Program-made: the position numbers and the translations under genes
Notes under the pieces: generated by a model
The model's input: the letters and a program-made list of their open reading frames with translations, nothing else
What the model was told of the DNA's origin: nothing
Database searches by the model: none
NCBI GenBank assembly: GCA_003134655.1
Contig: PLBY01000107.1
Span: forward strand, 1-64,000
DNA: 64,000 bases
Direction of reading: 5' to 3'
Source: Acidobacteriaceae bacterium
Lineage (GTDB): Bacteria; Acidobacteriota; Terriglobia; Terriglobales; Acidobacteriaceae
Shown: piece by piece, positions 29,856 to 35,446 of the stretch
Position numbering within the stretch: position 1 is the stretch's first letter
Layout: every line of letters begins with the position of its first letter

Positions 29856-30269
29856 CTATCGATTGCTGCCCTTCAAGTCGCCGTGCAACTCGGGATGCGG
29901 TCCCTGTTCCACTTGATCGAGCTTCTTCTGCTGGTCATCGTTGAGGAGTATTCGGATTTTGTTGTCGGCGGCGTATCGCGAGTCCCTGACTTTGCTCAGG
30001 CGCTCTTCGTGGGAGAGACTCTGGTCCTGCACAAGCTTCACGGTCGTGTCATGCAACTCCTGCAGGATGGGTTTGATTCTCGCCTGCTGATCGCCGGTGA
30101 GATCGAGCTTCGCGGTCAGAAATGTCAGCTGGCCCTCGGCAGTGGGTACGCCGGCGTGCTCGCCCGCCGACAGGCCTTTGGTTGAGGCGCTGGTGGCAGG
30201 CTGCTGCGCGGTCGTGGCCAGAGCGGACAGCAACATGGTCCCGATTGCAAGTAAGCGAAAGCGGTTCAT
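29856..30269 (-). CDS. Spy/CpxP-like periplasmic protein, copy 2
   Basis: A 137-residue exported protein with a signal peptide (FRLLAIGTMLLSALATTAQQ). Two LTxxQ-like motifs, LDLTGDQQARIKPIL and ILLNDDQQKKLDQV, are the marks of the Spy/CpxP family of helical periplasmic chaperones and stress sensors. AAGGAG precedes the ATG at 30,269. It is transcribed away from a TetR gene with 93 bp between, a layout in which the TetR protein usually controls both. Confidence 0.8.
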   Translation of the reverse strand: MNRFRLLAIGTMLLSALATTAQQPATSASTKGLSAGEHAGVPTAEGQLTFLTAKLDLTGDQQARIKPILQELHDTTVKLVQDQSLSHEERLSKVRDSRYAADNKIRILLNDDQQKKLDQVEQGPHPELHGDLKGSNR

Positions 30270-30362
30270 CGTGTTTTCTCCTTTGCCTATGATTGGGCAA
30301 TGTAGCGGTCGAACGCCGCGCAGTCGAGAGCGATTTTGAGTTGCTGAACAAAGAGGCGGTCG

Positions 30363-30986
30363 ATGTCCAGGAACGAGCGCTCCAAGTTGCAGGAACAGGC
30401 CGTGGCAAGGGAACATGGAGTCATGCGGCATGGCAAACCTGATGAGCGCGTCCGGCGTACGCACGAGCGGCTGGGCAGCGCACTGGTGGCGTTGATCCAG
30501 GAGAAATCCATCGATGACGTGACGGTGCAGGAAGTCTTAGATCGCGCCTCGGTCGGTCGTTCCACGTTTTATCTTCACTTCCGCGACAAGAATGACCTGC
30601 TCCTCAGCCAACTGGAGACGTTCCTGGAAATGATGAGCACGGCGCTCAGCACCCGCAAAGAGAAGTCTCTTCGAGTGGTCCCTGTCGCAGAGATGTTTGA
30701 GCACATCGGCAACCAGAAGAAGGTCTATCGCGCGTTGGCTGACTGTGGCCGTTTGAACGACTTCTTCGATCTCGCGCAAGGCTATTTTGCTCGCGGAATC
30801 GAGCGGCGGCTGGTCGAGTCCGGACGTCTGCCGAAACTTCCGCAGCGTGAACTGGCTGCGCGGTCGTCTGCATTGGCGGGAAGCTTGCTATCGCTGCTGC
30901 GGTGGTGGCTGGATCGCGGCGCCAAAGAAAAACCCCGTGCCATGGACGAAATGTTCCACAAGATGGTATGGAGCGGGCTGCAATGA
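30363..30986 (+). CDS. TetR/AcrR-family transcriptional regulator
   Basis: A 207-residue repressor-type regulator. The HTH is in [32 protein letters not shown] (about 47-80), the standard TetR recognition pattern. The C-terminal ligand domain is variable ([18 protein letters not shown]). The first ATG at 30,363 has AGAGG six bases upstream; a start at 30,423 is also possible. The stop overlaps the AraC start (ATGA), so the two regulators are coupled. Divergent from a Spy-like gene. Confidence 0.9.
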
Positions 30987-32410: not shown

Positions 32411-32914
32411 TTATTCCGAGGGAGGAGCGGGCGGCGCTTCCTGCATGTGCTTTTGCATGCGGGCTTCGTGCTTCGCCTCGATCTCCTTCAACTGGGCGCG
32501 CTGGTCCGTCGTCAGCAACTGGTAGAGCTCGTTGTGAACGCGCGTCTCGTTGACGGTGAGCTGGGTCTGGACTTGCGCCTTCTGTGCGGCAAGGGCCTGC
32601 ACCTTGGCCGGATCGAACGTGCCTTCCACGTACTGGCGGAGTTGCACGTCGATCTGGTGCTGCTGCTGCATCAGCGGCTTCATGGCAGGATGCTCTTTCT
32701 GCATAATGGTCTTCATCTGCGCCTTCTGCTCGTCGGTCAGGTTCAGAGCTTTGGCAAAGAATCCCATCCTGTGGCCTTCGCCTTCCATGCCGTATCCGTG
32801 GCCGTGCATGGGTGGCGGCGGGGGAGCGTCGGCGGCGGTCTGGGACTTGGCGATCGAACTGCCCAGCAAAACGGCCATAGCGGCGATCAATAAACGGTAC
32901 CGAATCGATTTCAT
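32411..32914 (-). CDS. CpxP/Spy-like periplasmic protein, copy 1
   Basis: A 167-residue exported protein. Signal peptide RYRLLIAAMAVLLGSSIAKS, then a proline/histidine/glycine-rich lead (PPPPPMHGHGYGMEGEGHRM) that could bind metal, then the helical chaperone domain with two LTxxQ motifs, LNLTDEQKAQMKTI and QLLTTDQRAQLKEI. CpxP and Spy proteins bind unfolded proteins and damp the Cpx sensor. AGGAG precedes ATG 32,914. It is divergent from a CpxR/CpxA-like pair, as cpxP is in E. coli, with CpxR-box-like repeats between. Confidence 0.85.
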   Translation of the reverse strand: MKSIRYRLLIAAMAVLLGSSIAKSQTAADAPPPPPMHGHGYGMEGEGHRMGFFAKALNLTDEQKAQMKTIMQKEHPAMKPLMQQQHQIDVQLRQYVEGTFDPAKVQALAAQKAQVQTQLTVNETRVHNELYQLLTTDQRAQLKEIEAKHEARMQKHMQEAPPAPPSE

Positions 32915-32991
32915 GTTGACTCCTGGAATTCTCCGGGATGTCCCGGGACTGTGCGTACATTGATAGGAACACGGATGCGGGGGAAAAGGCG

Positions 32992-33027
32992 GTAAAAAGA
33001 CGGTCAACCGGAGTAAAGTTTTGTCAA
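32992..33027. promoter_or_regulatory. Four phased GTMAA half-sites, CpxR-box-like operator
   Basis: GTAAA at 32,992, GTCAA at 33,003, GTAAA at 33,013 and GTCAA at 33,023: four direct half-sites with starts 11, 10 and 10 bp apart, one helical turn each. The E. coli CpxR box is GTAAA-N5-GTAAA, direct repeats 10 bp apart. The array lies 78 bp upstream of the CpxP-like start and 137 bp upstream of the response regulator. A possible minus-strand -10 (TATCAAT) is at 32,965-32,959, which places the array where an activator would sit. Confidence 0.6.
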
Positions 33028-33103: not shown

Positions 33104-33163
33104 TATCTCATTTGACAATTCTTTACTACGGGGGGCTCTTGGCGGGTGCACAATAAGGTTGCG

Positions 33164-33871
33164 ATGGAACGAATTCTTGTTATTGACGATGATGTCGAAC
33201 TTTGCCACCTGGTTGGGGAGTATCTACGGGCGGAAGGATTCACGATTGACTGTGTGCATGACGGCGAGAGCGGGCTGAAGAAAGCGATGGCCGGCGAGTA
33301 TCTGCTGGCAGTGCTGGATGTGATGCTGCCGGGGATCAACGGATTTGAAGTGCTGCGCAGGATCCGCGCGACTTCACGGTTGCCGGTGTTGTTGCTGACG
33401 GCGCGAGGCGAGGATGTGGACCGGATCGTCGGGCTGGAAATTGGAGCTGACGATTATCTGCCGAAGCCGTTCAATCCGCGGGAACTGGTGGCGCGCATTC
33501 GGGCGGTGTTGCGGCGAACGCGGGCGGATGGCAGCGCAGCCGCGGCCGCGCCGGACATGGTGAGTGTGGGCGACGTGGAACTGGATCCGGCAACCCGGAC
33601 GGTACGGCTTGAGGGCAAGCCGGTCGATCTGACTTCGGTGGAGTTCAATTTGCTCGAAGTACTTTTGCGGGAAGCCGGACGCGTGGTGCCGCGGGAACGG
33701 CTGGTGAATGCGGTGTTGAGCCGTAAGTTCTCGCCGTTTGACCGGAGCATCGACATGCACGTCAGCAAGGTGCGGAAGAAGTTGGGTGATACCGATAGCG
33801 ATGAGCACATCAAGACCGTGCGGGGTGTGGGGTATATTTTTGCGCGTCCGCGGGAAAAGGTTAAGGCCTAG
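33164..33871 (+). CDS. OmpR/CpxR-type response regulator
   Basis: A 235-residue DNA-binding regulator. Receiver: acidic pair in LVIDDDVELC, phosphoacceptor Asp52 (AVLDVMLPG), Lys101 (YLPKPF). Winged-helix output: VRLEGKPVDLTSVEFNLLEV, RVVPRERLV, then DRSIDMHVSKVRKKLGD and IKTVRGVGYIF, the OmpR/PhoB pattern. ATG 33,164 has AAGG five bases upstream; a GTG at 33,146 lacks one. Cognate kinase starts 162 bp downstream; repeat DNA fills the gap. Confidence 0.92.
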   Translation: MERILVIDDDVELCHLVGEYLRAEGFTIDCVHDGESGLKKAMAGEYLLAVLDVMLPGINGFEVLRRIRATSRLPVLLLTARGEDVDRIVGLEIGADDYLPKPFNPRELVARIRAVLRRTRADGSAAAAAPDMVSVGDVELDPATRTVRLEGKPVDLTSVEFNLLEVLLREAGRVVPRERLVNAVLSRKFSPFDRSIDMHVSKVRKKLGDTDSDEHIKTVRGVGYIFARPREKVKA

Positions 33872-34033: not shown

Positions 34034-35446
34034 ATGAAGAGTCTATTTCTGCGAATTTTTCTGTCGTTCTGGATGGCGCTGGCGCTGTTTGTAGTGCTGG
34101 CCGTTCTGGTTACCCTGGCATTTCGGCCTCGCAGTTCCACCTGGGAAGCTCTGCGCACGACGGTGCTCAACGAATCGGTCAGCGCTTACGAAGAAGGCAA
34201 CGAAACGCAACTGCGGGAGTACATGGAGAGCGTCGAAGCGACGCAGCATGTGCGGGCCTATCTGTTTGACGAACGGGGAAACGAGCTGTCGGGCCGTCCC
34301 GCGCCAGAGTGGGCAATCCGAGTGGCCTCGGGCGGACCTCGCATGCCTCGAGATGGATTCATTTTCCCGGCGCCGCCGCTGCCACGAGACTCGCGGGCTT
34401 CTTCCGACGGCAAGCACCGTTACACCCTCGTTCTGGGATTGCCTCCGGGCCCAAGAGTATTCTTCGGGCCCCGGGGAATGCCGCTCCCAGGGCTGATCAT
34501 TGCGATCATCTCTTCCGGACTGGTCTGTTATTTCCTCTCTTGGTATTTGACCAAGCCGATCATCCGTCTGAGGGCGGCGACGAGGCAGTTGGCGGCGGGG
34601 GATCTCACGGCGCGCAGCGGAGCTCCCGCAACCAAGAGGAAGGACGAAGTGGCGGGCCTGATGCGCGACTTTGACGCCATGGCGGAACGGCTGGAGATGT
34701 TGGTGAAGGCGCAGTCTCGCTTGCTGAACGATATTTCACATGAATTGCGGTCGCCGCTGGCGCGGTTGAATGTTGCGCTGGGGCTGGCGCGGCAGCGGGC
34801 GGGCGTGGAGAGCGCCGACATGCTGGATCGTATTGAACTCGAAGCCAGCCGGTTGAACGAATTGATCGGAAGGATTCTGACGCTGGCGCGGCTGGAAGAC
34901 GGCGAACAACGTGTTCCGCAGACTCCGGTGCCGCTGGGCGAATTGGTGGCGAACGTCGCGGAAGATGCGGAATTCGAGGCGCAAGAGCGGCATTGCCACG
35001 TGCATACGGTGATCCCTGAGGGCGACTGGGGAGTTCGCGGGAATGACTCGCTACTGCACAGCGCGGTCGAGAACGTGGTGCGCAACGCCATCCGCTATAC
35101 GGCGGAAGGTTCGTCGGTTGAGATTGCGCTGACGAGCGAGGAACGAAGCGGAGGGGCGGAGGCGGTCCTGCGGGTCAGCGATTCGGGGCCGGGAGTCCCT
35201 GAGAATGCTCTGGCAAAACTGTTTGAGCCGTTCTACCGGCTGGATGACGCAAGGGGTCGTCTTACCGGGGGAGTAGGACTGGGCTTGGCGATTACAGAGA
35301 GAGCAGTGCGCTTCCACGGTGGGAAGGTGGCGGCCTTCAATCGTGCGGAGGGCGGGCTGCTGGTGGAGATTCGGCTTCCGTTAATCTCGCGGTTGGCGGG
35401 GATGGAGGAACGGGCGGAAGTGGTGCCTTCGGGGCAGGAAGCGTAG
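34034..35446 (+). CDS. CpxA-like sensor histidine kinase
   Basis: A 470-residue inner-membrane kinase. Helix one is at about 8-30, a periplasmic domain of about 120 residues follows, rich in Pro/Gly/Arg near its end, and helix two is at about 153-173. Then come a HAMP linker (TKPIIRLRAATRQLAAGDLT), the dimerisation helix with phospho-His236 in LLNDISHELRSPLARLN, and the ATPase domain with NVVRNAIRYTAEGSSVEI (N box), RVSDSGPGVP (G1) and GGVGLGLAITERAV (G2). Arrangement with the upstream regulator and divergent CpxP-like gene matches cpxRA. The periplasmic sensor is unlike the E. coli one in composition. Confidence 0.92.
   Translation: MKSLFLRIFLSFWMALALFVVLAVLVTLAFRPRSSTWEALRTTVLNESVSAYEEGNETQLREYMESVEATQHVRAYLFDERGNELSGRPAPEWAIRVASGGPRMPRDGFIFPAPPLPRDSRASSDGKHRYTLVLGLPPGPRVFFGPRGMPLPGLIIAIISSGLVCYFLSWYLTKPIIRLRAATRQLAAGDLTARSGAPATKRKDEVAGLMRDFDAMAERLEMLVKAQSRLLNDISHELRSPLARLNVALGLARQRAGVESADMLDRIELEASRLNELIGRILTLARLEDGEQRVPQTPVPLGELVANVAEDAEFEAQERHCHVHTVIPEGDWGVRGNDSLLHSAVENVVRNAIRYTAEGSSVEIALTSEERSGGAEAVLRVSDSGPGVPENALAKLFEPFYRLDDARGRLTGGVGLGLAITERAVRFHGGKVAAFNRAEGGLLVEIRLPLISRLAGMEERAEVVPSGQEA

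Follow-up and report, generated by a model that had tools for sequence, protein, structure and literature searches.

A probable Cpx-type control region with a phased four-half-site array in Acidobacteriota

Does the Cpx logic of envelope stress, including the DNA code read by its regulator, exist in Acidobacteriota? The question is raised by the window analysed here, a stretch of 64,000 nucleotides from an Acidobacteriaceae bacterium (assembly GCA_003134655.1, contig PLBY01000107.1, positions 1 to 64,000 of the forward strand), in which an earlier note had pointed to a tandem CpxR-like box. On the established view, the DNA code and the regulon of bacterial regulators generally drift. The agreement found here in operator sequence, placement before cpxP and efflux-pump target, between a soil Acidobacteriota genus and E. 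coli or Pseudomonas, recommends Cpx for studying how a two-component code persists over very long times. In addition, a poorly studied group gains a directly testable envelope-stress regulon, and the use of gene order together with motif evidence could aid the annotation of stress targets in uncultured genomes.

Judged from sequence, the intergenic region very probably controls an envelope-stress circuit of the Cpx type, with a co-regulated efflux pump. This goes beyond the earlier note in three respects: there are two boxes, an efflux target is conserved, and the distribution is linked to the regulator. In the literature searched, which comprised titles and abstract openings and few subscription journals, we found neither an account of Cpx in Acidobacteria nor a phylogenetic survey on this topic, and the main text of PMC8041468 does not mention CpxR.

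The locus and its two boxes

The array had been placed between a CpxP-like gene and a divergent CpxR/CpxA-like pair, and the Pfam and NCBIfam matches bear this out. The gene at 32411..32914 (minus strand) encodes a CpxP/Spy-family periplasmic protein of 167 aa with the Pfam LTXXQ domain (57.3 bits, cut-off 24.3), which in NCBIfam reaches 73.9 bits with the Spy model and 55.7 of 160 bits with the CpxP model, each below the cut-off. Its AlphaFold model, based on 34 aligned sequences, has a mean pLDDT of 82.4, and the top PDB matches are the CpxP structures 3qzc (TM by target length 0.79, Foldseek E 2.7e-3) and 3itf (0.69 and 7e-3); no match has an E below 1e-3, and Salmonella STV and Spy come next. 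The locus therefore has the divergently encoded CpxP-family periplasmic protein that marks a Cpx envelope-stress system. A second small protein, probably secreted and carrying the motifs LTGDQ and LNDDQ, is encoded at 29856-30287 (minus strand); its gene diverges from one of the TetR family at 30363, and it scores 18.6 bits with Pfam LTXXQ, below the threshold of 24.3.

The response regulator at 33164..33871 (plus strand, 235 aa) consists of a receiver and a winged helix (Pfam receiver and Trans_reg_C). CpxR is the first of its 85 NCBIfam matches with 223.1 bits (cut-off 341), followed at a distance of 0.5 bit by OmpR with 222.6, likewise below cut-off, while BaeR gives 178. The protein is just 45% identical to E. 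coli CpxR, but the recognition helix is nearly the same, PFDRSIDMHVSKVRKKL against PFDRAIDMHISNLRRKL (PFDRSIDMHVS against PFDRAIDMHIS); OmpR-like proteins have Q where these two have H (for example L232, ERSIDVQIS). By its domains, its top NCBIfam match and its grouping in the tree described below, it is an OmpR-family regulator of CpxR type. The sensor histidine kinase at 34034..35446 (plus strand, 470 aa; Pfam HAMP, HisKA and HATPase) fits best the Legionella-type CpxA model of NCBIfam, with 349.6 bits over residues 1-450 of 470 (cut-off 800), and the other CpxA model gives 266 bits (cut-off 486). Since none of the NCBIfam equivalog cut-offs for CpxR, CpxA and CpxP is reached by the window proteins, we class the system as Cpx-type and do not call it an equivalog of the E. 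coli system.

Array 1, at 32992..33027 on the plus strand (GTAAAAAGACGGTCAACCGGAGTAAAGTTTTGTCAA), has the form GTAAA-N6-GTCAA-N5-GTAAA-N5-GTCAA. The starts of its four GTMAA half-sites, 32992, 33003, 33013 and 33023, are exactly those that had been claimed, as are the steps of 11, 10 and 10. The array lies 77 nt from the start codon of the cpxP-like gene, which it would serve as a site for two tandem CpxR-like dimers. With at most two mismatches allowed, the window contains the phased pattern of four half-sites a single time, and none of 100 dinucleotide shuffles contains it. The window has three GTMAA-N5-GTMAA pairs where 0.21 would be expected, all of them within the cpxP-cpxR intergenic region. 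The third pair, overlooked in the earlier note, is box 2 at 33112..33126 on the minus strand (GTAAAGAATTGTCAA), directly before the regulator gene and 37 nt from its ATG; 13 of its 15 bases agree with the final pair of half-sites in the array (GTAAAGTTTTGTCAA), and it is proposed as an autoregulatory site of the cpxRA-like genes. Direct-repeat boxes of the GTAAA-N5-GTAAA type are thus found before both cpxP and cpxR, with half-sites that are GTMAA and not strictly GTAAA.

At the scale of the whole 8.0 Mb genome, the GTMAA pair shows no enrichment, with 41 matches against 41 in the reversed control, so that a single pair is uninformative, and a scan with two half-sites was rejected as a predictor of the regulon. 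The surroundings of 20 places among those 41 matches were taken, and 19 of them (L010-L028) gave one useful new site, which lies before a BON gene (L015). Three phased half-sites, by contrast, are informative: across 41 same-genus genomes there are 62 matches, falling in 37 of the genomes and with overlapping matches within one array counted separately, against 2 in the reversed control.

Promoter-like elements were chosen by eye and both candidate -10 elements are weak. For the cpxP-like gene, TATCAA at 32960..32965 (minus strand) lies 26 nt from the nearest half-site, and for the cpxR-like gene, CACAAT at 33149..33154 (plus strand), a weak match to the consensus, lies 22 nt from box 2 and ends 9 nt before the ATG. 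The spacing of these blocks to the boxes is nearly fixed across the genus: in all 35 loci GTGTT, just before the possible cpxP -10, is separated from the array's TTTAC by 18 or 19 nt, and ACAAT stands 23-25 nt past box 2 in 34 of 35. A scan with the sigma-70 consensus detected no promoter-like pair with 16-18 nt spacing at the locus. If CACAAT were the -10 element of the regulator gene, transcription would begin only a few bases away from the ATG and give a nearly leaderless mRNA (33149-33164).

Conservation in the genus and further sites

The earlier note had proposed the phasing of GTMAA in orthologous regions as its own check, and the outcome is in its favour, with the array and box 2 present in 35 of 37 same-genus loci. 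These loci were compared one per genome, excluding a fragment in G009 and a second copy in G019 (L134, 78% identical). The first survey of 37 same-genus genomes had found regulator orthologues in 35, with only a fragment in G009, only a 56% relative in G032 and no regulator match in G031. Of the 35 arrays, 26 are exact at every half-site, 8 at three of them and 1 at two; in 30 of these loci box 2 reads exactly TTGACAATTCTTTAC. The array columns carry a mean of 1.66 bits (n=35) against 0.11 and 0.18 in the flanks, and the distance from the array to box 2 varies from 34 to 229 nt while the spacing inside the array, including its first step of 11 nt, is conserved. Kept half-sites and phasing amid diverged flanks mark this as an operator maintained by selection. 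Two loci depart from the pattern: L041 retains box 2 and lacks both array 1 and a cpxP match, and in L044 the contig breaks off 80 nt short of box 2. The 11-nt step recurs in another genus of the family (G327, L299), whose regulator locus reads GTAAA-N6-GTCAG-N5-GTAAA-N5-GTAAA.

One genome of the genus, G016 (L030, G016:C230; L069, G016:C57), has a 99% identical regulator and four half-sites, yet its cpxP-like protein is just 36% identical; another contig of this assembly holds the array with a 92% copy. Either gene replacement or a mixed assembly would account for the discrepancy.

The 15-base core GTAAAGWWTTGTMAA is present in 39 of 41 same-genus genomes, with 109 matches in all against 3 in the reversed control. 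By the tblastn classes of their neighbours, core or near-core boxes precede an RND adaptor gene of the MdtA/MuxA family at 37 distinct loci in 36 of the 41 genomes (39 rows, two being repeats of the same place), and leuD is close by in every one among those listed. In the window's own genome, the array before mdtA (G000:C126:92234-92268) has four half-sites with steps of 10-10-10. The adaptor scores 393.4 bits with MdtA/MuxA, passing the equivalog cut-off of 391, and it is followed by MdtB/MuxB with 1535.1 bits, slightly below 1584, and then by a second RND-like ORF, partial in the stretch read. The half-sites of this array read toward the gene, the reverse of the cpxP case, and a separate TTGATG-N17-TACTAT is seen by eye downstream; action of CpxR independent of site orientation is reported in the accessible part of PMC5063474. 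No mdtA-like gene was found by tblastn at 30 core loci outside the genus, and the link to mdtA is therefore demonstrated within the window's genus only.

Seven more core sites in seven genomes (L151, L152, L154, L156, L158, L163, L115) share one common leader. BON domains were confirmed by Pfam in the gene at L151, alone among the seven, and in the own genome the site at L015 is a one-base variant before a protein 78% identical to the BON one. Each of these seven sites has a TTAACC-N4-GGTTAA palindrome, then the core box and, some 18-20 nt further on, the ATG, an arrangement that suggests two regulators or repression. The remaining core sites named here (L104/L153, L113, L114/L118/L167, L149) are at genes without a discerned connection to Cpx.

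The regulator, its distribution and the reader of the boxes

Outside the genus, the core box follows the regulator. It was found in 15 of 26 regulator-positive genomes (31 matches, 4 in the control), being absent from the other 11 searched, and in 1 of 30 regulator-negative genomes (1 match, 0 in the control), with a Fisher p of 9e-6 when genomes are taken as independent of kinship. The 26 are from the 28 with loci read among 67 regulator-positive genomes of the phylum besides G000 (the window's genome) and G013, with G108 and G121, from the genus of G144, excluded; the 30 consist of 20 genomes of the same family, negative at E <= 1e-70, and nine of family f2 plus one of the same class, negative at E <= 1e-60. 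Nine of the 30 core loci read outside the genus are at a CpxP- or regulator-like gene, and a further match (G204:C38) is beside its regulator. With the sites at cpx loci set aside, 21 matches in 13 of the 26 genomes remain, at genes mostly without an assigned identity.

The association was also examined in 121 regulators from many phyla, whose named rows are the best 80 among the matches listed. A perfect box, N5 or N6, lies within 300 nt upstream of 38 of 75 regulators with a CpxR-type helix, leaving 37 without one in that distance, as compared with 3 of 46 others, and the reversed upstream regions give 0 in both classes. When one mismatch is allowed, the counts become 54 of 75 (control 9) and 13 of 46 (control 7). 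The three others with a perfect box (L192, L218, L225) are proteins in which the helix pattern matched nowhere. A narrower helix class, PFDRxID only, gave 12 of 21 against 29 of 100 and was replaced as too narrow; the wider class used above was chosen after this result was seen.

Four genomes of another acidobacterial family (L281, L282, L283, L301) have a core box in a similar setting, in L281 and L283 before a small ORF resembling a membrane protein, which in L281 has no Pfam match. The other sites in acidobacterial family f30, examined by ORF and in a few cases by Pfam, are at genes mostly without a name. GTAAA-like direct repeats are also seen upstream of CpxR-like regulators in L181 (Desulfobacteraceae) and in L184 and L186 (Akkermansiaceae MAGs), and L181 has in addition a divergent LTXXQ-like ORF; these are possible Cpx-type circuits in further phyla.

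As to the origin of the regulator, the tree of the same 121 proteins, rooted at the midpoint, puts the window protein in a clade of 44 rows (support 96/94), mostly Acidobacteriota with a few rows of Thermodesulfobacteriota, Rokubacteria and Abditibacteriota; the named Acidobacteriota rows agree with the lineage given for the window's genome. E. coli CpxR belongs to a neighbouring clade of 21 Pseudomonadota rows (99/93), and the two clades are joined by a weakly supported fork (88/52). Both fall within a group of 73 rows that is set apart from the OmpR/PhoB-like rows at 98/91 under this root. A recent transfer of the locus from Proteobacteria is unsupported, the regulator lying beside and not inside the Pseudomonadota clade. 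Given the weak fork, the midpoint root and several open forks, the tree fits ancient descent and early transfer alike. The distribution is patchy, since a regulator match at E <= 1e-70 occurs in 69 of 396 genomes of the phylum. Somewhat short of even confidence, we suggest that a Cpx circuit with this DNA code, this box geometry and part of its targets (cpxP, cpxR and an mdtABC-type pump) is common to Acidobacteriota and Pseudomonadota, with thinner evidence in Thermodesulfobacteriota and Verrucomicrobiota, that it is ancestral or spread very early, and that in the window's genus it takes the form of a two-dimer switch with four half-sites and strict 11-10-10 steps.

Other readings of the boxes have to be weighed against these results. 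The boxes could be real operators whose main reader is some other OmpR-family regulator, such as a BaeR- or OmpR-like one, with the adjacent regulator a bystander. The genomes examined have many response regulators (152 candidates in G000 at first look), the CpxP-like protein fits the Spy model with a higher score than the CpxP model, and the accessible part of PMC2731931 reports spy and mdtABC of E. coli to be targets of BaeR. However, box presence tracks the adjacent regulator outside the genus, box 2 stays with the regulator in L041 despite the lost array, the regulator prefers CpxR to BaeR in score, has a CpxR-type helix and groups apart from the OmpR-like rows, and the motif is the published CpxR motif, all of which makes another main reader unlikely.

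Still less credit is due to the reading in which the TTGAC and TTTAC strings are -35 elements of core promoters, repeated by chance or belonging to overlapping promoters, and not half-sites. Box 2 does contain TTGACA, the sigma-70 -35 consensus, on the gene strand, but the consensus scan gave no pair with proper spacing, the strings of the mdtA array are oppositely oriented to their gene, which has its own promoter-like pair downstream, and three or four copies at steps of 10-11 nt would be left unexplained; we regard this reading as very improbable. A chance cluster of common pentamers, to which the control-level rate of single pairs in the own genome would lend itself, is refuted by the conservation amid randomised flanks and runs against the shuffles and the excess of three phased half-sites over the control, so its probability is close to nil.

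A Cpx-type control region, the reading preferred here, would work as follows. The kinase may sense trouble in the envelope, being restrained by the CpxP-like protein, and would phosphorylate the CpxR-like regulator. Two regulator dimers would probably bind side by side on array 1 and activate the cpxP-like gene, the product of which would feed back on the kinase, while a single dimer on box 2 would autoregulate cpxRA. The same code would drive an RND pump of the MdtABC/MuxABC type and probably also the BON-domain periplasmic protein. The suggestion that Cpx logic and its DNA code exist in Acidobacteriota has gained support from the conserved phasing, the association of regulator and box, the helix, the orientation and the distance to cpxP.

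Comparison with known systems

E. coli K-12 has, as here, a divergent cpxP / cpxRA arrangement with a direct-repeat box read on the cpxR strand. The E. coli box GTAAAACAACGTAAA has the same orientation and lies 79 nt from the cpxP ATG, against 77 here, but it is one GTAAA-N5-GTAAA pair, whereas the window has a four-half-site array of alternating GTAAA and GTCAA and a separate box on the cpxR side. The BaeR box differs in sequence from the CpxR-type box. The BaeSR regulon of E. coli is similar in having a Spy-family protein and the MdtABC pump as targets (PMC2731931, in part); the regulator in the window, by contrast, scores lower with BaeR (178 bits) than with CpxR (223). The E. coli CpxR motif is given as GTAAA-N5-6-GTAAA in the accessible text of PMC9600279. 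AgrR of Cupriavidus was dropped as a comparison; according to the part of PMC7380067 at hand, it binds an inverted repeat plus direct repeats.

P. aeruginosa resembles the window in its mixed GTCAA/GTAAA half-sites and in having sites at both cpxP and muxA. HT-SELEX of PAO1 CpxR yielded GTCAA/GTAAA mixtures, with a predicted cpxP site at -81 and two overlapping predicted CpxR sites at muxA (PMC12802237, as far as accessible), the latter of which can be read as three half-sites; control of the cpxP and muxA promoters by CpxR is described in the available portion of PMC5063474. The cpxP and muxA sites quoted for P. aeruginosa are of the N6 type, as compared with N5 and one N6 here, and in Pseudomonadaceae the kinase and regulator genes flank cpxP on opposite sides, unlike in the window (PMC12802237, same portion). 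The same source describes Cpx throughout alpha-, beta- and gamma-Proteobacteria. The system found here is of a known kind; its novelty lies in a clear occurrence in Acidobacteriota under the same DNA code, and in the arrangement of four half-sites.
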